Source of the DNA: a virus
Direction: 5' to 3' (one strand)
IMG/VR virus record: IMGVR_UViG_3300037674_000462
Coordinates: 1 to 32,165 of that record
Length of the DNA stretch: 32,165 bases
The position numbers and the translations under genes were made by a program. Below, piece by piece: positions 3,685 through 27,863 of this stretch (position 1 is its first letter; each line of letters begins with the position of its first letter). The notes below the pieces were generated by a model that searched no databases, was not told the DNA's origin, and was given only the letters and a program-made list of their open reading frames with translations.

Positions 3685-4888
3685 TAGATTTTTTAGGACA
3701 GGTTCAGATTTTATCGACGAAGAAGAGAAAAATAACCCTGCTCAAGTTTATATTTCTAGAGAAGAAGGGTTCAGTATAGGAAGTACAGAAAACTTTACAA
3801 ACTATACTAAAGCCTATGAACAATTTGAAGTAGTTAATAGAGCTGTAAATTTAATTGTCGATGATGTTGCAGAGATACAAGTTGATGTAGGAGATAAACT
3901 AGGTTTAACACCGATATATAAAAATGTACGAAAATCTCGGGTTGATCTCTTACTGAATTTAGAGCCTAATCCTTTTCAGGATATTAATACTTTTAAAAGA
4001 AATTTAATAATTGATTTATTAATGGATGGAAATATATTTATATATTTCGATGGTGTACACATGTATCAATTACCAGCTAAAAATGTTGAAATTGAAACAG
4101 ATGAAGACACTTATATAAAATCTTTTATTTATGATGGAAAGATTATGTATAGTCCAGAAGAAATTATACATATTAAGGAAAACTCTTTTGAATCTATGTA
4201 TCGAGGAGTACCTAGGCTAAAGCCTGCTTGGACACGAATGCAACTATTAGGCTCTATGAGAAAGTTTCAAGAAAACTTTTTTAAGAATGGAGCAGTTCCT
4301 GGGTTGGTACTTAAAAGCCCTAATACTCTTAGTGAAAAGATTAAAGAACGAATGCTTGCAGCATGGAGATCACGATATAATCCTACTGCTGGCGGACACA
4401 GACCACTCATTTTAGATGGTGGTTTAGAAGTATCTAATTTAAACGAAGTTAATTTTAAAGAGTTAGACTTCCAAGAGTCTATTAAAGAAAACGAAAAGAT
4501 TATTTTAGAAGCAATTGGAGTTCCTCCAATTCTTCTTGATAGTGGTAATAATGCTAACATTCGTCCAAATCATAGACTTTATTACTTGGAAACTATACTT
4601 CCTATTGTAAAAAAGATTAACTTTGCGTTTGAAAGATATTTTGGTTTTGATTTGAAGGAAGATATTAGTAATATTCCTGCTCTTCAACCAGAATTGCAAG
4701 ATCAGGCATCTTTTTACGCTACTCTAGTTAATGGAGGCATAATGACTCCAAACGAAGCTAGAGAAGCATTAAGAATGCCTGCTATTGAAGGGCATGACGA
4801 TATTAGAGTTCCCGCAAATATAGCAGGAAGAGGCTCCGCCGCAGACCCTTCGCAGGGCGGAAGACCAGAAGAGGAAACAGATGAATAA
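3671..4888 (+). CDS. Portal protein, HK97 family
   Basis: The portal is the ring at one capsid vertex through which DNA enters and leaves. It also binds terminase and the neck proteins. The 405 residues follow the HK97-portal pattern: AYEQFEVVNRAVNLIVDDVA early on, then LLNLEPNPFQ, a MDGNIFIYFDG strand, the helical stem region with FFKNGAVPGLVL, and EAIGVPPILLDSGNNANIRP, a highly typical block of this family. The C-terminal tail (SAADPSQGGRPEEETDE) is low-complexity and sits in an unusually GC-rich DNA stretch. The start overlaps the HNH gene, and the stop overlaps the protease-capsid start. Length and motifs are complete. Confidence 0.93.
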   Translation: MAWYNRFFRTGSDFIDEEEKNNPAQVYISREEGFSIGSTENFTNYTKAYEQFEVVNRAVNLIVDDVAEIQVDVGDKLGLTPIYKNVRKSRVDLLLNLEPNPFQDINTFKRNLIIDLLMDGNIFIYFDGVHMYQLPAKNVEIETDEDTYIKSFIYDGKIMYSPEEIIHIKENSFESMYRGVPRLKPAWTRMQLLGSMRKFQENFFKNGAVPGLVLKSPNTLSEKIKERMLAAWRSRYNPTAGGHRPLILDGGLEVSNLNEVNFKELDFQESIKENEKIILEAIGVPPILLDSGNNANIRPNHRLYYLETILPIVKKINFAFERYFGFDLKEDISNIPALQPELQDQASFYATLVNGGIMTPNEAREALRMPAIEGHDDIRVPANIAGRGSAADPSQGGRPEEETDE

Positions 4889-15629: not shown

Positions 15630-16825
15630 CAGATATAATAGCGTCAAGTCAAAAACTAGACACAGATGCTTCGGAGTTTATAGAATTATTTTCTATAGAA
15701 TACGCTGCAGGTAGCCATGCTTATTTTTATAATGGAGGATTCGAAGCAACAGATTCCTCGACTAAAGTTCGTTTTAGAGATGCTGTAGGAGGGACTGTAC
15801 GAGAATATACTCCTATTCCTATTGATATAGAAGGAATGAAATTTGAAATGGAAGGAGCCTCTGTTCGACCTACTTTAACTATAGCAAATATATCAACGAT
15901 TTTTTCAACATCTATAGGAGATATGAACTTTGAAGAGTTAATTGGACAAAGAGTAACTAAACGAACTACATTAAGAAAATATTTATACGATCAAAATACA
16001 ACGAATCCTCCTATTGAATATCCTGTTCAGTCTTATGTTATAGATAGAATAGTTAGTAAGAATATTTTACAAGTTGTTTTTGAATTAGCAAGTCCTTTTG
16101 ATTTGCAGGGTACTTCATTACCTAGTAGACAAATAATTGGAGGTGGTTGTCCTTGGAAATATCAAGGAGCTGCACTTTCTTTAGCTGAAAATGCAAAAAA
16201 AGGTGGTTGCAGTTGGGAACCTGATGGTAAAATCACTACATATGTGGGTACAGCTACTGATTATAATATTTATGTAAATAAAGCAGATGAATTTATAGTG
16301 CCTAATGCCATAGTTCAAGCATCTACATCCTCTCCTTCGATTTCAAGTTTTTATAGTTATAATGCAGGTAATTCTCTAACACGAGTAAACTCAAATGGCA
16401 GTAAAACAGCTTCCCAGGCAAAAATCTATCAGGTGATGACACCTATAACAGGTTTAGGAGCAACTCCTACAAATACTAATTCGGAAGTAGTTCGTAGGTT
16501 CAGACCATACAGTGCTTCAGATACTTACTATGCTTATACAGACACTGATTTTAATGAGTATGTTTTATATAATAATGTTATATGGCAAGTTAAAAATGTG
16601 ACTCAAACAGGAGGGTCTCATATAACAACTCCTGAATCAGGAAGTTACTGGCAACGAGGAGATAGTTGTGGAAAAAAACTTACTTCTTGTGCAAAACGTT
16701 TTCATTCTACAGGTACTTCCAGCACTATAAGTGGAGTTACAACAAAGCACGTTAAAGCTAATGCCCTTCGAGATTACATTACCTTACCTTTTGGTGGGTT
16801 CCCTGGTTCCAGAAGGTTTAAATGA
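15626..16825 (+). CDS. Minor tail protein, lambda gpL-like, with four conserved-type cysteines
   Basis: The 399-residue protein follows gpM and precedes gpK, as in lambda. The N-terminal domain (EFIELFSIEY ... TPIPIDIEGMKFEMEG ... RPTLTIANI) and the block VFELASPFDLQG are typical of gpL. It contains exactly four cysteines: Cys175 (GGCPWKYQG), Cys195 (GGCSWEPDG), Cys348 and Cys355 (SCGKKLTSCAKRF). In lambda, gpL binds an iron-sulphur cluster through four cysteines in this region, so a [4Fe-4S] site is likely here. Between Cys195 and Cys348 lies an insert of about 150 residues, rich in Tyr, Ser and Thr, that lambda gpL lacks as far as I recall; it may be a surface domain. The final LPFGGFPGSRRF is also typical. 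Confidence 0.87.
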   Translation: MTDIIASSQKLDTDASEFIELFSIEYAAGSHAYFYNGGFEATDSSTKVRFRDAVGGTVREYTPIPIDIEGMKFEMEGASVRPTLTIANISTIFSTSIGDMNFEELIGQRVTKRTTLRKYLYDQNTTNPPIEYPVQSYVIDRIVSKNILQVVFELASPFDLQGTSLPSRQIIGGGCPWKYQGAALSLAENAKKGGCSWEPDGKITTYVGTATDYNIYVNKADEFIVPNAIVQASTSSPSISSFYSYNAGNSLTRVNSNGSKTASQAKIYQVMTPITGLGATPTNTNSEVVRRFRPYSASDTYYAYTDTDFNEYVLYNNVIWQVKNVTQTGGSHITTPESGSYWQRGDSCGKKLTSCAKRFHSTGTSSTISGVTTKHVKANALRDYITLPFGGFPGSRRFK

Positions 16826-17529
16826 TAGATAATAAATTATTATTACAAATAGTTACAGATTTACAAAAAGATTACCCAAGAGAAGGTTGTGGAATATTAC
16901 TTAATAAAAGAGGCTCTTTACATTGGATCTATTGTACAAATATTGCGGAAGGAGACGAAGAATTCAAATTAGATTCTAAAGAGTATGTAAAAGCTAGTTT
17001 ATCTGGGGATATTTATGCCATTGTTCACAGTCATCCAGACTATAGTTGTGAGCCTAGTGAAGCAGATAAAGAAAATTCCAATATTTTAGGAATTCCTTAT
17101 TTTATAATATCTATACCTTCTTTAGATCATACTTTATATGAACCAGAGTATAAAGAGGTCCCTTTATTAGGTAGAATGTATGATTTTAAAACAGCAAACT
17201 GTTGGACTCTGGTTAGAGATTATTACAATCAAAAATTAAAAATAAGTCTTCCTACCATTGATTGGGAAGACGATTGGTGGAATAAGGAATTAGATTATTT
17301 TTCTGATATGGTTGATCCTTTTCAATTTTATGAGGTAAGTACTCCTCAGAAACATGATGTAGTTCTTTTCAGAATTAGAGCACCTGTAGAAAGTCATTGT
17401 GGAGTGTATCTTGAAGAAGATATTTTTATCCACCATTCAGAGAATAGACTTTCTTGTAGGGAAAATTTACAAAGTCGGTACTTTGCACCGCACGTAACGA
17501 GGTATATGAGATGCAAACAGTTAGGTTAG
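16822..17529 (+). CDS. Tail tip peptidase, lambda gpK-like (JAB/MPN + NlpC/P60)
   Basis: Two peptidase domains are fused in 235 residues. The N-terminal JAB/MPN metalloprotease has Glu21, the HSHP motif (His69, His71), Ser79 and Asp82, a complete JAMM-type site. The C-terminal NlpC/P60 domain has the nucleophile Cys127 in ANCWTLVRDYY, His192 in SHCGVYL and a third polar residue at the IFIHHS strand. NlpC/P60 enzymes cut peptidoglycan cross-link peptides, so this protein probably opens a local hole during DNA entry, while the JAB part may process a tail-tip partner. The gene overlaps gpL by 4 bases and the next gene by 19. Both active sites look intact. Confidence 0.9.
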   Translation: MIDNKLLLQIVTDLQKDYPREGCGILLNKRGSLHWIYCTNIAEGDEEFKLDSKEYVKASLSGDIYAIVHSHPDYSCEPSEADKENSNILGIPYFIISIPSLDHTLYEPEYKEVPLLGRMYDFKTANCWTLVRDYYNQKLKISLPTIDWEDDWWNKELDYFSDMVDPFQFYEVSTPQKHDVVLFRIRAPVESHCGVYLEEDIFIHHSENRLSCRENLQSRYFAPHVTRYMRCKQLG

Positions 17530-18383
17530 AAGGAAAATTAGGGGAAAAATTTGGAGAGGTATGGGAAATGAACATAACTTCTCTTTCTGAAATTTTTAGA
17601 TTAATAGGATGTCAAACTCGAGGATTTCAACAGCATATGATTCATGCTGCAGAGAATGATATCGAGTTTGCTATTCAACAAGGATCTGATTTTTATGGAG
17701 AAGAAGATTTACTACTTTCTAATAATCTAAAAGAGGATGATATTATAATTACTCAAATTCCCGCAGGGCAGAAAAGTGGTTTTGCAAAAATAATAGCAGC
17801 AGTATTAATAGTATGGCTAATGGTTATCTCAGCAGGTGGCGCTGCGGGGCTAGGTAGTATGCTTGGTGGTCAAGGAGCTACTGGTGGCATCCTGGCAGGG
17901 ATTGGGAGTCAGGGTATAGCACAATTTGTGGCGTGGTCCGCCATGGGAATAGCATTAAACCTAGCAATGAGTGGAATAAGTCAGCTTCTTGCTCCAGGCC
18001 CTGAAACTGATTCTAGAGAAACGAACGAAGCTTATTTATTCGATGGTCCTGTCAACCAACTTAAACAAGGTGTTCCAGTTCCAATTGCTTATGGAGAATT
18101 GGTGGTAGGAGGCTCTCCTATGAATGTATCTTATAGGTCTTCAAAATTTCCGTCTGGAGGTTATAATTTTGGAGCTTGGAACCACGGACAAAATTATAAT
18201 GGACCCGATACTACTTCAGATGCAGGAAAGACCCAAACTCCAACACCTACAGATACGGACGGAGATACTTGGCCAGATCCTACAGACGAGACTGTTTATC
18301 CTCATATAGGACACACAAATGATTGGGGCTTGGGTACCTGGGAAGCCGATGACTATATCGAAACCCACGTAGCAAACGTATAA
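17511..18383 (+). CDS. Tail assembly protein, lambda gpI-like, with Asp-rich C-terminal tail
   Basis: The 290-residue protein fits the gpI position and pattern: a ubiquitin-like N-terminal part (MQTVRLEGKLGEKFGEVWEM ... DIIITQIPAG), then a long hydrophobic Ala/Gly-rich stretch at about residues 92-160, then the conserved-type block ETNEAYLFDGPVNQLKQGVP followed by VPIAYGELVVGG. The last 70 residues are unusual: Gly/Asn-rich, then TDTDGDTWPDPTDE (Asp248, 250, 252, 256). This resembles thrombospondin type-3 or dockerin-like calcium-binding loops. The ATG lies inside the gpK gene with a 19-base overlap. In lambda, gpI helps assemble the J-containing tip and may not remain in the virion. Confidence 0.8.
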   Translation: MQTVRLEGKLGEKFGEVWEMNITSLSEIFRLIGCQTRGFQQHMIHAAENDIEFAIQQGSDFYGEEDLLLSNNLKEDDIIITQIPAGQKSGFAKIIAAVLIVWLMVISAGGAAGLGSMLGGQGATGGILAGIGSQGIAQFVAWSAMGIALNLAMSGISQLLAPGPETDSRETNEAYLFDGPVNQLKQGVPVPIAYGELVVGGSPMNVSYRSSKFPSGGYNFGAWNHGQNYNGPDTTSDAGKTQTPTPTDTDGDTWPDPTDETVYPHIGHTNDWGLGTWEADDYIETHVANV

Positions 18384-21300: not shown

Positions 21301-24300
21301 AAATTTTTAATTCCGACAGAGCAATATAAAGATACACCTAGCAAAGACGCTGTTGTACCTGCTCCTACAGGAGTACGTATGACTATGACTCCTTCTTCCG
21401 GAATTTCGGGTCAATCTTCGGGTAATGAGTATATACTTAATTTATCTTGGAATGCACCGGAACCTTCTGGTTCTTATCCTTTCTATAAATTTTTAGAGTC
21501 TTATGAAATACGACATCCTTTTAATCCTAATTTTGATGGATCTACTACTTCTTTAATTATTCCTGGATCTCGAACTAGTACAACATTTACAAATGTACAA
21601 GATGGAGTATATACCATAAAAGTCAGAACTAGAAATACTCAAGGACAAGTTTCTAGCTGGGCCAGAGTAACACAAACTGTAAAACCTAGTGAGGTAACAT
21701 CATCGAACTTTGGTAGAGCAGGAAGATTAGCTTTTGGAGGAACTGCTAGTTCTAATACTACAATATCTGGGAATGGTGGTTTTAAGTTTGCGAAAGCAGA
21801 TTTTAGATATGTTGCTCCTGGAGGCTCAAGTTTTGATCAAAATGGATCTATGTCTGAAGTAGCTTTTTCTTCTATGTCAAATGGAGATGTTGCGTATGCT
21901 TATTATGATCATAGTGCTATTGGTTTTATAGCTGCACAACTTCATGCAGATAATGTAGTTGTTGATACAGGTGGAGAAGTATTAGGAGTAAATTACTGGA
22001 AAACCTTAGGAGCTAGTAATAATGGATTATCTACTTTAACAAGCGGTACTGTTGTAACTACTGTAGGCAGTAATGTAGTTACAGGTAGTGGAACTGTATT
22101 TAACACAGATTTTGATGCTGGAGATTTAATTAAGATAACTACTTCTAATGCAGCGGGCACTCAATTATCTACAGCAGAATATGCAGAAGTTACACGAATA
22201 GAAAGTAATACTATATTACACTGTACTTCTAATTTTACTAAGGCGCAAAGTGGCTATGCTTATAAACAAAGTTTTAAGCCTGATTTTGCCACAGATGCAG
22301 TAGTGACTAAAATCTCTAAGAGCGGTGGTAATTATAGTTTAGTTAATTATGTTATTGGAGACGGTAGTGAAGGATCTGATGGAAGACAAACAGTAAATGG
22401 AATAATATATAGAACTGCCGCCTCAAGTTCAACACCAGCAGTACCTAGTATGACGTCGTATACTTTCAGCACTAGAGCATTCACTGGAGGAAATACTAGT
22501 GCTTGGAGTTTAAGTCCTCCTGCTATAACTGCTGCTAATGCTAATAATTTTTGGCAAGCTGATTATAAGGTAACAGAAACAGTAGCTCTAGGTAATGCAG
22601 GCGTTCCTTCTTATGGACCTCTTTCTAGAAGATTAGACGGTACAGGAAATACTATAGGCAAAGATGAAGGAGACCTAGATGTTGATAATTTAGCTGATTC
22701 AGGAAACACTAAGACCGGCGCTGTGAGGGCCTGGGCAAAAATTAATGAAGACTTGCAATGGACAGGCGATTTTAAAAATAACGGTAGTGTGTATAGTCAA
22801 TTAAATGTTACCAATGAAATTGGAGCAAAAAGCCAAGAATCAACTAATAGATTTACTTTAGATACTGATAGTACTGAAGGTAGATTTGGATATAAAATTG
22901 GTGGAGGAGCTACTGCATATAATAACGTTTTTTCTTCGGCAGAAAGAACAAAACTAGATCGATTACGTTTAGGACAAGATCCTGCAGATGCTGCTAAGAG
23001 TATTCTAAATAATGGCATCACAATAGACGGGTCCGGAGTACTTACAGGAATTGGTACAGGAAGTATAGTAGTAAATTCAGCTAAAACAACATGGGACCAT
23101 GTTAGAGGTAATTCTTCTACTAATACAAGACCTGCAGATGGAGCCACTATAGGAGCTGTATTTGGTACTAATCTTTATAGTTCAGGAACAACTAATTTTA
23201 CAGCCGCAGAACTCAAGAATGCTAATCAAGATTGGCAAGATGTATCGGGAACAGGTATACCAGCAGATGGAGCAACAGTAGGAGCAATTGCAGGAACAAA
23301 TTTATGGAGAGCTGGTGGAACACAAGTACTCACAGATAATCAGATTATTACTTCTGCTGGAACTTCAGCAGATACAGCAAAAGTTAATAATGTTACTGCG
23401 GCAACAGTTAGTGGAGGAGCAGTAAGAGCTAATGCAGGACTTGATTCCAGTGGTAATGTAAATAGAACTGTACCTACAAGCTTTTATACAGATACAAATA
23501 CTCATCCTGCTGCAGCCGAAGTTAGAGGTCACTTCTCAGGAACTGGAATTAATACCGGTTCAGGAGTTATAACAAATACCACTTATGCAAACTTAGCAGC
23601 TTTGGATTCGACTGCTTCAGCTCAGTTAGCTGCGGCAACAGTACAAGGCCAATGGAATGTATATTCTAGCAGAACTTTCGTTCCTTATCAAAAGTTTCTA
23701 GGGACAGGTACTGGAGCAACTGCTTCTTCTTCTCCTGCTGGCAACACCTCGGTGACAGTTTATGCTCTCCATACTTCTGAAACTGATCGTAATGTTGTAG
23801 TAACTATATCAATAAATTCAGGTAAAACATCAGTTACTGCTAGTATGGCTTCATCAAGTTATTTTACTGCTAGCGGCGGTGGCGGTGCTAGTCTTGGGGG
23901 TAATAATTTTATAACAATAACTCATTCTGCTTCAGGGCAGAGCGCTGTGATTTCGTATGCATTAATTGATTCTACTGAAGGATCTACTGTTATATGTTGT
24001 TTTACTGAAGAAACTTTAGTAACTATGTCTGATTATACTTCAAAGAGCATAAAAGATATACAAATAGGAGACTCAGTAAAAACAGAAACAGGAATAGCAG
24101 AAGTAATAGATCTACATCCAACAATATTAGGCGACAGAAAATTATATTCTATAAATGGTGCTAAAGCTTTTGTAACCTCTGAACATCCTTTTAAAACAGA
24201 ACAAGGATGGAAATCTATTGACCCAGAAAGAACAAAGTTAGAAAGAGAAGAACTATTTGAAGAGCTAAATGGAGATTTACAAATAGGAGATAAAATTTTA

Positions 24301-24438
24301 AAATTAAACAATGAATATGAAGAGGTATCTAGTATTATTTCAGTAGAAGAACCTTCAGATACTTATCTTTATAATTTCACAGTAAATGGTAGTGATCATT
24401 CTTATTATGCGAATGGTTACTGTGTTCATAATAAGTAA
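18394..24438 (+). CDS. Central tail-tip / host-specificity protein, lambda gpJ-like, with C-terminal Hint domain
   Basis: The 2014-residue protein is the hub of the tail tip and probably recognises the host. The N-terminal half is J-like: MIYDLISEGEIQGLVNG near the start, KEYGLGMHLEDTDIDKYSLY, MIIWMDGQVTAVQDRP, and the ATRWANWML and FLRPGDIIIVQD blocks. A fibronectin type III-like domain follows at about residues 988-1096 (LNLSWNAPEP ... YTIKVRTRNTQGQVSSW). A beta domain lies at about 1217-1296 and a repeat pair ending in PADGAT-GA--GTNL near 1567-1640. From Cys1869 to the end is a Hint domain (CFTEETLV, TSEHPF with His1931, terminal VHNK with His2012 and Asn2013). AAGGAG lies 6 bases before the ATG. 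A GNAT-like gene follows 14 bases later. Confidence 0.93.
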   Translation: MVGGVSDLHPINVETRGPVDSRLENWPYPSEHQYGMIYDLISEGEIQGLVNGISSIYLNNVPIQNTATKAEAGGRVGSSTTTANSINVTVPSSFISGMSTAQGSRFVNIMNAAATGSVNGNYSQGSTTITTTTNMFTSTMDDDIVAGLYATSTVKQSKVSILPRYVTIPGSMADGSDGRYLLLAYVAPNQIEIYPGLQKAVSSGTKIHVDYIGKIVSYATSTVFTVTPAVPRAVTHSPTQFSIRLSSYGTAGDSNFEGVRGDFRTGTRYQMLTATGSADGVPNASFTAAPGNKLEWTTGFNTHNFDGTDTGDSGSQSPQVINPTAAPFNLTADQAKQIDSARLIIEFPAGLSAQTDEGNEVAGICEFQIFVHYKSNSSDSSYKKVLKVGRHNPDSFVAYGAAGSLIGVGFAADTSIIRAKTQTAFVVEFTANLTDIKPFTDWYLEIKRTTPSTQKDYTQPSKYPNHSFQGMAQLKFVELMVHDKLNYPNSAYGQVVFSARDFPTVPHRAYHIRGKKIKVPSNYITREEQNYNSPLTQEASYNRHVTTGVKASSYQVWDGNFRGDDSLNGSHVNRHKVYCNNPAWVFYDILTNKEYGLGMHLEDTDIDKYSLYQIGRYCDEMVPDGKGGLEPRFTANLYIAKLTEAYKVLKDMASIFRGMIIWMDGQVTAVQDRPKEPVYTFTTGNVENGLFEYEYTGSKARANQINVTYNDPEQLFKQTVLVIDDVDNIVETGKIVKNDTLAFGCTSPGQATRWANWMLKTNLLETELVKFTTSIAGGFLRPGDIIIVQDKKLSSIEFSGRLGAGSTTTSIALDRNVVLQSGQTYELFIFFPEPGAYLQQDSATINSVVYSRGDLISTDASGAAIDTALEAANLKDDSGNDVFTYYSQEGRLEKKTITTSAGTVSTLAVSSAFSSAAPSDTVWAISNVNDLRTDAPIKYRVLALEEDDSHKFSILAGKYSEEKYDEIEKKFLIPTEQYKDTPSKDAVVPAPTGVRMTMTPSSGISGQSSGNEYILNLSWNAPEPSGSYPFYKFLESYEIRHPFNPNFDGSTTSLIIPGSRTSTTFTNVQDGVYTIKVRTRNTQGQVSSWARVTQTVKPSEVTSSNFGRAGRLAFGGTASSNTTISGNGGFKFAKADFRYVAPGGSSFDQNGSMSEVAFSSMSNGDVAYAYYDHSAIGFIAAQLHADNVVVDTGGEVLGVNYWKTLGASNNGLSTLTSGTVVTTVGSNVVTGSGTVFNTDFDAGDLIKITTSNAAGTQLSTAEYAEVTRIESNTILHCTSNFTKAQSGYAYKQSFKPDFATDAVVTKISKSGGNYSLVNYVIGDGSEGSDGRQTVNGIIYRTAASSSTPAVPSMTSYTFSTRAFTGGNTSAWSLSPPAITAANANNFWQADYKVTETVALGNAGVPSYGPLSRRLDGTGNTIGKDEGDLDVDNLADSGNTKTGAVRAWAKINEDLQWTGDFKNNGSVYSQLNVTNEIGAKSQESTNRFTLDTDSTEGRFGYKIGGGATAYNNVFSSAERTKLDRLRLGQDPADAAKSILNNGITIDGSGVLTGIGTGSIVVNSAKTTWDHVRGNSSTNTRPADGATIGAVFGTNLYSSGTTNFTAAELKNANQDWQDVSGTGIPADGATVGAIAGTNLWRAGGTQVLTDNQIITSAGTSADTAKVNNVTAATVSGGAVRANAGLDSSGNVNRTVPTSFYTDTNTHPAAAEVRGHFSGTGINTGSGVITNTTYANLAALDSTASAQLAAATVQGQWNVYSSRTFVPYQKFLGTGTGATASSSPAGNTSVTVYALHTSETDRNVVVTISINSGKTSVTASMASSSYFTASGGGGASLGGNNFITITHSASGQSAVISYALIDSTEGSTVICCFTEETLVTMSDYTSKSIKDIQIGDSVKTETGIAEVIDLHPTILGDRKLYSINGAKAFVTSEHPFKTEQGWKSIDPERTKLEREELFEELNGDLQIGDKILKLNNEYEEVSSIISVEEPSDTYLYNFTVNGSDHSYYANGYCVHNK
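23091..23315 (+). repeat. Two-copy internal protein repeat in the J-like gene
   Basis: Two diverged copies (about 23091-23190 and 23232-23315) encode W..V followed by PADGAT(I/V)GA..GTNL. The first reads ADGATIGAVFGTNLYSSG and the second ADGATVGAIAGTNLWRAG. The copies differ at many silent sites, so this is an old protein-level duplication. Confidence 0.6.
23998..24435 (+). other. Hint (hedgehog/intein) autoprocessing domain at the C-terminus of the J-like protein
   Basis: This is a 146-residue domain. The N-terminal block CFTEETLVTM ... IKDIQIGDSVKTETG matches intein block A. TSEHPFKTEQGW matches block B, with His1931. The end TYLYNFTVNG ... YYANGYCVHNK matches blocks F/G, with His2012-Asn2013. 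Only one Lys follows Asn2013, so there is no C-extein and normal splicing is impossible. N-terminal thioester chemistry at Cys1869 remains possible, as in hedgehog proteins and bacterial intein-like domains. No homing-endonuclease insert is present. Confidence 0.88.
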
Positions 24439-24452
24439 CAAAGGAGAAATCA

Positions 24453-25178
24453 ATGCATATAACGTTTCCGGATACTATTAGTGATGATATTATATCGCTG
24501 GCCGTAGGTAGTGATGTTTATACGTTAGCAAAAGGAACGGTATCAGAAAGAGATATATACGTTACTTGTACAGAGGATATTCCCAATGCTCCAAACATGC
24601 ACAATGAGTGCAATGAGCTAGTAGATTGGAATATATTACAACCCGAAAACGATGAGCGTACCGTGGGAATAAGGAAAAGCTGGTGTGTTTACAGTAAAAA
24701 CGGTACTATTTTTGGTTCTGTTGTTTATACTTGTGAAGAGCTTGAAAATTATACTGGAGTTCATAAATGTATAGATATACAAACAAGTATACTCCCGGAC
24801 TTTAGAGGCCAAGGATTACTAAAGTATATAGGTTACTTAGGAGATTATGTTGCACATCATGATGGAAATAGTTGTGTTAATACAGAGTTTTCAGTCATTG
24901 ATTCCTCAAATAAAGTATTGAAAGATTCTAAGAATAGAAACAATAAATGGCTTTACTTAGACGATAGTAAATACACTGAAGTCTCTCATCGTTTTCAATC
25001 AACTCCTACTATAGTAACAGAATATTGGGCCAAGCAAGGTATTACAAAAAGTATGTTTTCTGTAACCAAAAGAAAAACTGCTTTAACAGATGCTAAATGG
25101 CAAACTCCTTTAGTAAAAAAACATATAGCAAGACAGAACTTAAAGAACTGGGACGACAGTTCCAGATTTCCAAGCTAA
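24453..25178 (+). CDS. GNAT-like acyltransferase candidate
   Basis: The 241-residue protein shows a pattern suggesting the GCN5-related N-acetyltransferase fold: a strand TIFGSVVYTCEE (about residues 85-96), then IDIQTSILPDFRGQGLLKYI (107-126), in which RGQG resembles the motif A loop that binds the acyl-CoA pyrophosphate, and later EFSVIDSSNKVLKDS (145-159), similar to motif B. The substrate cannot be told. The gene starts 14 bases after the Hint-ended J-like gene with a strong AAGGAG site at 24441-24446, so it is probably made with it, and it might modify a tail protein. Six cysteines are scattered with no clear metal motif. The C-terminal 80 residues are unrecognised. The promoter at 25197 follows its stop. 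Confidence 0.6.
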   Translation: MHITFPDTISDDIISLAVGSDVYTLAKGTVSERDIYVTCTEDIPNAPNMHNECNELVDWNILQPENDERTVGIRKSWCVYSKNGTIFGSVVYTCEELENYTGVHKCIDIQTSILPDFRGQGLLKYIGYLGDYVAHHDGNSCVNTEFSVIDSSNKVLKDSKNRNNKWLYLDDSKYTEVSHRFQSTPTIVTEYWAKQGITKSMFSVTKRKTALTDAKWQTPLVKKHIARQNLKNWDDSSRFPS

Positions 25179-25250: not shown

Positions 25251-25583
25251 ATGTCAGCAGGCAAATATAACATTACGATGGATCAAGGCAGCGACTTCTC
25301 TCTGCAACTTACAGTAAAAGAAAGCGGTTCCGCTAAGAATCTAAGCGGCTACTCTGCGCGCGGGCAGATACGTACAAGTGCGTCCGCAGCAAGTGCTTCG
25401 GCGTCTTTTGTATGTACTATTACTAATGCAGCTGCAGGGACTCTAACTATTGCACTAGCGGCAGCTACTACCACAAGTTTGACCGCGGGCCAATATGTCT
25501 ATGATGTGGAAATCTATACAGGTTCAACTGTACAAAAACTTATTCAAGGAACAGTTAAGATCAGTGCAGAAGTAACTAAATGA
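25251..25583 (+). CDS. Small tail-fibre-associated beta protein (BppU N-domain-like)
   Basis: The 110-residue protein resembles the small phage beta-sandwich modules that anchor fibres or baseplate adhesins. It shows TMDQGSDFSLQLTVKE, LSGYSARGQIRTS, a Thr/Ala-rich middle (AGTLTIALAAATTTSL), then TAGQYVYDVEIYTG and a closing strand ending in EVTK. The family call rests on overall pattern, not on catalytic residues. It is the first gene behind the promoter at 25197-25226, and its end overlaps the next start by 4 bases (ATGA). It has no membrane segment, and its codons are more GC-rich than those of the following genes. It likely links the fibre genes downstream to the tail tip. Confidence 0.65.
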   Translation: MSAGKYNITMDQGSDFSLQLTVKESGSAKNLSGYSARGQIRTSASAASASASFVCTITNAAAGTLTIALAAATTTSLTAGQYVYDVEIYTGSTVQKLIQGTVKISAEVTK

Positions 25584-25966
25584 GTGAGTATTTAGGTAAT
25601 ACAATCATTCATGCTACGGTTACTGAAAGAACAATCGTAGAGAATAATATAAATGATGTAACAGTAAATTTAGATCCTGTTACAACAGAAGTTCCAACTA
25701 ATTTCGTTTTGTTACAGTTAGGTGCTTCTGGTATTCCTATAACTACGCCTTCTTCTATGACGGCAACCAATGTACAAACAGCATTAGAAGAACTAGCAGA
25801 TGAATATTATCATAAACAAGCGGGGCCTCCCTCTTCTCCTAATGAAGGAGATATTTGGTATGATACCGATGATAACGTTTTACAGTTATATAGAAATAGC
25901 GCATGGGTAACCATGGCAGGAGCAACAGGTACTGATATGAGTACTTTTTCTGGCGGAACTTACTAA
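25580..25966 (+). CDS. Tail-fibre-related protein, paralogue A
   Basis: The 128-residue protein has a beta-rich N-terminal half, then VQTALEELADEYYHKQ, then GDIWYDTDDNVLQLYRNSAW and a C-terminal end FSGGTY. The next gene repeats the same architecture, so the two are tandem paralogues. The block P(S)SP.EGD.WYDT...L..Y...W is common in phage fibre and neck-appendage proteins. It overlaps the genes on both sides (ATGA upstream, TAATG downstream). The exact role is unknown; a short adhesin or fibre linker is the likely class. Confidence 0.6.
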   Translation: MSEYLGNTIIHATVTERTIVENNINDVTVNLDPVTTEVPTNFVLLQLGASGIPITTPSSMTATNVQTALEELADEYYHKQAGPPSSPNEGDIWYDTDDNVLQLYRNSAWVTMAGATGTDMSTFSGGTY

Positions 25967-26361
25967 TGACTACAGAAGTATATATTACAGAAAATGTAAC
26001 AGATATAGCTATTGGCGATGATCAAGCCGCTACAGAAATTACTGTACAAGAAAATAAAACAGAAGTTACTGTTAGTGCTGCATTGTCAGCAACAGCAGGA
26101 GCAAATGCAATTGTTTATGAAGCTGGGGGCTCTATAGAAAGTACTACGGTACAAGCAGCTATAGAAGAATTAGCAAATGATTTTTATAGGGGTACGACAG
26201 TGCCCACAAGCGGAATAGAAGAAGGAGACTTGTTCTATGATACAGATGACAATATCTTAAGAGTTTATGCAGAAACCAGTTCGAATAATTTGGAGTGGGT
26301 TACGCTAATGGAAGCGACAGACTCTACCAATATGCTTAGATTGGACGGTGGATCTTATTAG
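25966..26361 (+). CDS. Tail-fibre-related protein, paralogue B
   Basis: The 131-residue protein is built like the gene before it: N-terminal strands (TEVYITENVTDIAIG), then VQAAIEELANDFYRG, GDLFYDTDDNILRVYAETSS and the ending LRLDGGSY. Shared features with paralogue A are the EELA helix, the GD..YDTDDN.L..Y strand pair and the GG(T/S)Y terminus; most other positions differ. The TAATG overlap with paralogue A supports coupled translation in comparable amounts. A spacer of 26 bases with GGAGA precedes the next fibre gene. Confidence 0.6.
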   Translation: MTTEVYITENVTDIAIGDDQAATEITVQENKTEVTVSAALSATAGANAIVYEAGGSIESTTVQAAIEELANDFYRGTTVPTSGIEEGDLFYDTDDNILRVYAETSSNNLEWVTLMEATDSTNMLRLDGGSY

Positions 26362-26387
26362 AATCCCAAGTAACGACGGAGACTTAA

Positions 26388-27863
26388 ATGGCAAATACAA
26401 TTCAAATTAGACGAAGTACTAGTAGTAATGCACCTACTAGTCCAGGCCTAGCGGCAGGAGAATTAGCGTATTCAGGAGGTGCGGGTGCTCAAAATGATTA
26501 TGGTCAACGATTAATGATCGGAGATCCAGCAACTAGTAATACAAAAGTAATAGGCGGAGAATATTTTACCGCAATGATGGATCACGTTACTGGCACGCTA
26601 ACTGCTAGTAGTGCGTTACTAGTTGATTCCAATAGTAAAATTGATAAACTACTGAGTGGTAATATTAGAATTAATAATACTGCAGGTCAAATCGATACTG
26701 CTTCTGGTAACTTAATAATGGCACCGGCCGGTGATTTAATACTCACTATGGGCGGCGGCACTTTAGATATGTCTAATACCAATGCTAATGAGATTAAAAT
26801 TGCAGATAATCAAGCTACCTCTCTTATACTAAAAACAGCAGATCACAATTATATTACATTAAATACTACTAATGGATCAGAAAAAGTTCTGTTTGGTCGT
26901 AACGCTGAGTTTGATGGAACTATTCAAGCAGATGCTACTGTAACTGTAGGTGTAGATGATACTGGACATGATGTTAAATTTTTCGGAGCAACTACTGGTA
27001 AGTCATGGTTATGGGATGAATCTGATAATAAAATGATAGTTACAGGGGACGCTTCTATAAGCGGAACAACTACTTTATCAGGAGGAATGACAATTCCTAG
27101 TTCTCAAACTATTAATATGGGAGCTAATCGAGTACAAGGTGTTGCTGATCCTTCTTCTGCGCAAGATGCTGCAACAAAAGCATATGTAGACGCAGTAAAA
27201 CAAGCTTTAGATATTAAAGACTCTGTAAGAGTAGCAACTACGGCAAATGTTACTATTGCTACCGGTCTTAATGTTGGAGATGCTATCGATGGTGTAACTT
27301 TAGCAGATGGAGACAGGGTACTAGTAAAAAATCAGAGTACTGGAACAGAAAATGGTATATATGTAGCAGGAGCAAGTCCCGCACGTGCAGCAGACGCAAA
27401 TGTTTCTGCAGAAGTTACTGCAGGTATGTTTTGTTTTGTTGAAGAAGGTACCACTAACGGAGATAATGGCTATGTATTAACCACAAACGGTACTATTACA
27501 TTAGGCTCGACAGCTTTAACCTTCGTACAGTTCTCAGGAGCTGGTCAGATTATAGATGGAAATGGATTAGTAAAATCCGGTAATACTTTAAACCTAGACT
27601 TGGCTACTAACGGAGGTTTAGTATTCTCTGGTGCTAAACTAAAAGTTGACCTTTCATTGGGTTCTATTGATGGAACACTAGATGAAACAGGTGGTGGTAC
27701 TGGAAATAGTAGTTATGCAACTGGTGATCTATTATATGCCAATGGTACTAATCAACTTACAAAACTCACAAAGCCCGCAAATTCAGCCTTAGGAGTCTTT
27801 TTATCTATGACTTCAGCAGGAGTTCCTACTTGGGAATCGATTGATGGCGGCACATATTCTTAA
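26388..27863 (+). CDS. Tail fibre protein, 491 aa
   Basis: A modular fibre. The N-terminus TIQIRRSTSSNAPTSPGLAA followed by GELAYS is an attachment-type module also seen, diverged, in the next gene. The middle has short beta repeats (LIMAPAGDLILTMGGGTLDM; GKSWLWDESDNKMIVTGDAS). At about residues 230-270 comes IPSSQTINMGANRVQGVADP followed by SSAQDAATKAYVDAV, a typical shaft-to-head junction. The rest holds DIKDSVRVATTANVTIATG, DGVTLADGDRVLVKNQ and NGIYVAG, a block frequent in fibres of aquatic phages. It ends in SIDGGTYS, close to the ends of the two preceding genes. Receptor binding is inferred from architecture; no enzyme motif is visible. Confidence 0.8.
   Translation: MANTIQIRRSTSSNAPTSPGLAAGELAYSGGAGAQNDYGQRLMIGDPATSNTKVIGGEYFTAMMDHVTGTLTASSALLVDSNSKIDKLLSGNIRINNTAGQIDTASGNLIMAPAGDLILTMGGGTLDMSNTNANEIKIADNQATSLILKTADHNYITLNTTNGSEKVLFGRNAEFDGTIQADATVTVGVDDTGHDVKFFGATTGKSWLWDESDNKMIVTGDASISGTTTLSGGMTIPSSQTINMGANRVQGVADPSSAQDAATKAYVDAVKQALDIKDSVRVATTANVTIATGLNVGDAIDGVTLADGDRVLVKNQSTGTENGIYVAGASPARAADANVSAEVTAGMFCFVEEGTTNGDNGYVLTTNGTITLGSTALTFVQFSGAGQIIDGNGLVKSGNTLNLDLATNGGLVFSGAKLKVDLSLGSIDGTLDETGGGTGNSSYATGDLLYANGTNQLTKLTKPANSALGVFLSMTSAGVPTWESIDGGTYS

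Follow-up and report, generated by a model that had tools for sequence, protein, structure and literature searches.

A Hint domain at the C-terminus of a phage tail-tip J homologue as a candidate self-processing module

What does an intein-type Hint domain do at the very end of a phage host-recognition protein, where a single residue follows its terminal His-Asn? The question is raised by IMG/VR virus record IMGVR_UViG_3300037674_000462, a 32,165-base contig fragment analysed at its full length and referred to here as the window. One of its genes encodes a homologue of J, the tail-tip/central fibre protein of phage lambda, whose last 146 residues had been predicted from the DNA alone to form an orphan Hint domain of intein/hedgehog kinship. 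Comparison of sequences and a structural model indicate that J probably removes this domain from itself through an N-terminal thioester formed at the 1868|1869 bond.

The open reading frame (ORF) and coordinates of J were re-derived. The protein ends in ..YYANGYCVHNK-stop, with the stop codon at 24436-24438. The key residues Cys1869, His1931 (24184-24186), His2012 (24427-24429) and Asn2013 (24430-24432) were all found where the original prediction had placed them, and Lys2014 is the sole residue after Asn2013. A second cysteine, Cys1868, lies immediately N-terminal to Cys1869. Searches with Hint and intein profiles, suggested at the outset as a check, gave a match of Pfam Vint to the J tail at 35 bits against a cut-off of 27, covering positions 2-71 of the 166 in the profile. 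A phmmer search of the J Hint against solved proteins reached the gp41-1 and DnaB inteins, with solved inteins matched at E = 6e-6 and 9e-5. Structure prediction, the second check, yielded a Hint fold: in an AlphaFold model based on an alignment of 67 window and locus sequences, the predicted local distance difference test score (pLDDT) was ~97 across the domain, and the 69 residues N-terminal of it were of low confidence. Using this model, Foldseek ranked BIL2 of Tetrahymena BUBL1 first (E = 4e-10, template modelling score (TM) 0.82 by target), followed by the gp41-1 intein and the Clostridium thermocellum bacterial intein-like (BIL) domain 2lwy. The Vint, intein and BIL matches, the model and Foldseek thus bear out a Hint domain in this part of J.

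The HN end is absent from hedgehog and type-B domains, and class 1 intein splicing needs both a C-extein and Cys, Ser or Thr at the +1 position. Type-A BIL domains are defined by a terminal His-Asn with no need for Cys, Ser or Thr at +1 (PMC4031507, PMC7765530); cleavage at both ends is reported for them, as is low-yield splicing in which the C-terminal piece takes part through its freed amine (PMC4031507). In J, a Hint fold with intein blocks A, B, F and G, supported by the model, Foldseek and the profile, is combined with Cys1869, the terminal His2012-Asn2013, and Lys2014 followed by stop. A profile of the family matched BIL domains at 6e-29 and 2e-26 and every named intein at 3e-16 or worse. 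Between the two lay PDB entries 8w20/8w22, a 1368-residue 'Intein C-terminal splicing domain-containing protein', at 4e-20. Because the terminal His-Asn is kept and the structural neighbours are BIL domains, the J Hint is best filed, on sequence and model, as type-A BIL-like rather than hedgehog-like.

Each of the known relatives differs from the J Hint in some respect. The type-A BIL domain 2lwy shares the Hint fold, Cys1, the block-B T-x-x-H, the terminal His-Asn and the lack of an obligatory +1 Cys, Ser or Thr, whereas the window's Hint lies at the extreme C-terminus of J, ends one residue after Asn, and belongs to a family that prefers Lys at +1. BIL2 of BUBL1 (6y75, 6tmm) was the top structural and profile match, but it belongs to a eukaryotic polyubiquitin-like locus, and no ubiquitin-like domain was detected in J, adjoining the Hint or elsewhere. 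Vint/hedgehog Hog domains have the Hint fold, a C-terminal position and an N-terminal thioester in common with it; they lack His-Asn, carry a sterol-recognition region, and scored more weakly than BIL domains by profile and structure. Assignment to Hog was ruled out by the presence of HN and the end of the protein one residue later. Class 1 inteins (gp41-1, DnaB) share the fold and splicing blocks, and assignment to them was ruled out as Lys2014 is followed by stop, leaving neither a +1 nucleophile nor a C-extein. Of the kinship first claimed, the fold and the intein blocks stood, and the hedgehog-like filing was corrected. 'Orphan' holds in the sense that J has no C-extein beyond Lys2014, but the domain itself is a member of a large family.

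The J Hint would act one time, on its own polypeptide. Cys1869, aided by Thr1928-His1931, is predicted to attack the preceding peptide bond and turn J 1-1868 into a thioester. Resolution of this thioester by water or an amine would let the Hint leave, with J either trimmed or joined to the amine. Asn2013 could cyclise and free Lys2014; alternatively, Lys2014 could itself take part. Its likeliest use would be in the maturation of J as the tail is assembled, with the Hint serving as a removable module at the C-terminus. C-terminal self-removing domains are a proven design on phage tailspikes, by unrelated chemistry (PMC3742443). The intramolecular chaperone domain of the endosialidase tailspike is such a module on a phage receptor-binding protein, but its fold and chemistry are unrelated to those of the J Hint.

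A scan of viral sequences with the window's Hint as a single protein gave no match, so viral contigs were scanned with DNA patterns for Hint blocks F/G and A, several of the resulting totals being lower bounds. The pattern scan found 40 viral stretches with a C-terminal HN-K-stop and many internal relatives, the latter an at-least figure. When 146 Hint host proteins were clustered by their non-Hint parts, 49 groups were obtained; PHROG scans of 30 host proteins returned tail families for some and, for many, the Hint alone. Among named phages, the sole tblastn match to the window's Hint was in Achromobacter phage 2-1, where it fell in a different gene close to the tail genes, and tblastn with other family Hints found mostly helicase, terminase and reductase inteins and hypothetical proteins. 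Conservation was high: in Hints made non-redundant at 60% identity, Cys1 was kept in 114 of 118 and HN in 112 of 118, a set partly selected for HN. In alignment A2, the block-B Thr and His, neither of which was selected for, were each present in 66 of 67 sequences.

The C-terminal form also occurs in bacteria. The HNK-stop pattern matched 21 stretches in bacterial genomes, 15 of which were confirmed to carry a C-terminal Hint; the form is therefore not limited to the window's phage group, and some of these genes may be prophage genes. Several of the host proteins, from Bacteroidales, Prolixibacteraceae, Bdellovibrionales and Oligoflexia bins (loci, numbered with the prefix L throughout, L453, L457, L463, L471, L454, L456, L462 and L470), looked surface-exposed or secreted on a reading of the sequence rather than a family search, the Hint following fibronectin-like repeats in Bacteroidales bins, for example. 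Other proteins in the survey, many of ~600-900 residues, carried two to four Hints in tandem (L153, L280, L363, L155, L154 and others), with R, K, FK, YK or IP coming after the inner copies, whereas the last copy often ends in HNK-stop. At L030, L034, L207, L300 and L359, a short linker, often rich in glycine, connects the HNK Hint to a second, shorter Hint-like domain of ~100-140 residues that has no HN end.

The nearest Hint to the window's, at 68% identity, forms the C-terminal end of a 2599-residue protein at L060. J 1824-2014 and this protein are 60% identical, the shared part starting 45 residues upstream of the Hint, and no BLAST similarity was found between the two proteins N-terminal of it. 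The genes after the Hint-bearing gene are homologous and in the same order at both loci. The sequences thus indicate that a Hint module is kept on different upstream proteins in the same cassette. The ratio of nonsynonymous to synonymous substitution (dN/dS) between the two Hints was 0.16 (NG86, 0.254/1.605), from one pair with high dS.

We also surveyed J relatives using a J-core scan blind to Hints, from which the best 80 loci were kept; 35 had a complete J C-terminus. Two of these, L412 and L427, carry a C-terminal Hint, with HN followed by seven residues. In a FastTree phylogeny of 109 Hints with many weak forks, the Hint of L412 and the L427-type copy at L291 were placed apart from the window/L060 pair, so that at least two gains of a C-terminal Hint by J are probable. 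A Hint near residue 20-30 is found in other J homologues (L187, L250, L277, L315 and others), and at L174 a Hint stands at the C-terminal end of gpI, immediately before J. G+C content is 29% in the Hint stretch of J (23998-24438) versus 37% in the rest of the gene, and the lower value may reflect later acquisition.

Together, the Hint fold, the intact catalytic residues, the purifying selection and the recurrence at the tail tip fit a self-processing domain, as judged from sequence and model. Several observations weigh against self-removal. The Hint is optional, since 33 of the 35 complete J relatives do without it, and among the Hints found, the window's own C-terminal clade comprises only two sequences. 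There are several candidates for what resolves the thioester: water, the lysine of a protein, or a small amine. For no member of the Hint family did biochemical or virion data come to light. Finally, a His-Asn at the very end is superfluous for a pure N-terminal cleaver, yet it is kept, suggesting a continued role for chemistry at the C-terminus although only a single residue could be released; this is the least explained feature of the J Hint.

The residue after this His-Asn bears on what the thioester is for. In 63 non-redundant Hints, excluding loci from Lys-requiring scans, the +1 residue was Lys in 29 and Cys, Ser or Thr in eight. Against a Lys content of 4.9% in the host proteins, the binomial P was ~1e-21, and at 40% non-redundancy (15 of 40) it was 2e-10, relatedness being only partly removed in either case. 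Mini-Hints with the block-A motif had +1 Lys in 46 of 54, a redundant count over all loci, some of them Lys-selected. As no other +1 residue comes near Lys in frequency within the family, Lys2014 is probably not incidental. One use for it would be ligation: the J thioester would be taken by a lysine epsilon-amine, supplied by another tail protein or by Lys2014, in the same J subunit or in one next to it, and the resulting isopeptide bond would attach or crosslink the fibre rather than only trim it. We regard this outcome as unlikely. It draws on the dominance of +1 Lys and on the closest solved relative, BIL2, which is reported to splice via a lysine epsilon-amine (PMC8616854), but for BIL2 the nucleophile is described as a lysine of ubl5, which may or may not be the +1 residue. 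Moreover, Arg, Ala, Val, Ile and others are also found at +1, common ancestry inflates the Lys count, and no crosslink has been seen.

Hints inside gpI (L029, L089, L246 and L227) are a further point for ligation. The insertion lies between '..VVPVLQGAG' and 'KGLLGIILGAAL', so that the Hint separates the ubiquitin-like region (..GAG) from the native lysine (KGLLG..) and directly precedes a lysine also present in most gpI proteins without a Hint; the arrangement resembles that of ciliate BUBL. Of 92 gpI-family ORFs readable by a simple pattern, 58 have Lys directly after the P-x-G-A/S stretch; removal of the Hint would therefore, on sequence, restore a normal-looking gpI with its native +1 Lys. 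The N-domain of Hint-bearing gpI was gpI-like by hidden Markov model (HMM); its structural model had a good Hint and a low-confidence N-domain. The gpI N-domain was described in 2006 as a ubiquitin-like fold with a conserved terminal glycine, and the JAB peptidase of K was predicted to process it (PMC1779556). The gpI-Hint fusions at L029 and L246 resemble BIL2 in their ubiquitin-like flanks, and BIL2 reportedly links a ubiquitin-like domain to lysine through an isopeptide bond (PMC8616854). By this parallel, tail-tip Hints with +1 Lys would be ATP-independent ligases that, as the tail is assembled, join J or the ubiquitin-like part of gpI to a lysine amine by an isopeptide bond, and would be the phage equivalent of the ciliate ubiquitin-like/BIL2 system; we consider this analogy quite unlikely to hold. 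In more general terms, recurrent tail-tip Hints, often with a +1 lysine, might include some that join tail proteins.

A doubtful alternative, which overlaps with self-removal of the Hint, is that the domain serves as a cap that mainly assists folding or trimerisation of J before removing itself. It resembles the tailspike chaperone domains (PMC3742443) in its location, the far C-terminal end of a fibre protein, and in the expected outcome, and a helper-like extra gene between J and the 112-residue gene is far commoner in Hint-bearing loci. On the other hand, a C-terminal cap role is inapplicable to the Hints at J N-termini and inside gpI, and no trimerisation element was recognisable in J. By analogy, such a role would be compatible with J removing its own Hint.

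It is very unlikely that the domain is a relic, that is, an inert intein that has lost its C-extein. In the weakly resolved FastTree phylogeny, internal Hints surround the window/L060 pair, as such an origin would have it, but all catalytic residues are kept, HN-terminal forms recur on many unrelated host proteins, and purifying selection, the latter from one pair, argues against decay. Ordinary intein splicing in trans with a separate C-extein, for which the intein-type blocks and the HN end could be cited, is extremely improbable, as J stops one residue after Asn with no Cys, Ser or Thr and only one Hint was detected in the 32-kb contig, although this is a genome fragment and a distant partner might lie outside it.

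Table 1. Features of the J locus in the window, with a Hint-bearing gpI for comparison.
Feature	Position	Strand	Basis
K homologue	16822..17529	+	Pfam Prok-JAB and NLPC_P60
Tail assembly protein I (gpI/TAPI), Hint-free in the window	17511..18383	+	phrog_32, E = 2.9e-33
J homologue (lambda J-type tail-tip/central fibre protein), 2014 residues	18394..24438	+	ORF; phrog_31, E = 4.5e-135; Phage-tail_3
J residues 1824-1868, predicted N-extein side of the cleavage site	23863..23997	+	Common to J and L060 along with the Hint
Hint domain, type-A BIL-like, J residues 1869-2014 (146 residues)	23998..24435	+	Pfam Vint, BIL profile matches, model, Foldseek
Cys1869, predicted N-S acyl shift nucleophile; scissile bond Cys1868-Cys1869	23998..24000	+	Cys1 in 114/118 non-redundant relatives
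Block B T-x-x-H, Thr1928..His1931	24175..24186	+	Thr 66/67, His 66/67 (alignment A2)
His2012-Asn2013, predicted C-terminal cleavage pair	24427..24432	+	HN in 112/118 non-redundant relatives, partly HN-selected
Lys2014, +1 residue and final residue of J	24433..24435	+	+1 Lys in 29/63 relatives not Lys-selected
GNAT-like protein, 241 residues, cassette gene directly after J	24453..25178	+	26% identity to the L060 neighbour
Downstream tail cassette (110-, 128-, 131- and 491-residue genes)	25251..27863	+	Common to L060 and other J loci
gpI with internal Hint, L029	ORF 3706-4846 in reverse-complement coordinates	-	

The identity of J was established by its core domain (phrog_31, Phage-tail_3) together with the gene order K-I-J; a second model, lambda_TipJ, matched at E = 6e-66, under that model's curated whole-protein cut-off. 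The GNAT-like protein encoded after J had no Pfam match, and its L060 neighbour showed a weak match to Acetyltransf_7 (E = 0.0016); the protein is possibly an accessory one. An extra gene, encoding a GNAT-like or a DUF7936-like 150-residue protein, stands between the Hint-bearing J and the 110-112-residue cassette gene in the window and at L412, L427, L313 and L358. Hint-less J genes with the same cassette mostly lack it, L421 being the exception (Fisher P ~1e-4, the loci not being independent).

Databases already carry annotations of Hint domains on phage proteins. In the literature searched, whose scope excluded most subscription papers, no description of Hint domains of J or gpI was found. 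If the J Hint is active, the host-recognition protein of some phages would be remade post-translationally, by trimming or covalent joining, and J sequences would have to be read and modelled differently. More broadly, a family of Hints that occur at N-terminal, internal and C-terminal positions of gpI and J makes the cutting or conjugation of the gpI ubiquitin-like domain (PMC1779556) testable.

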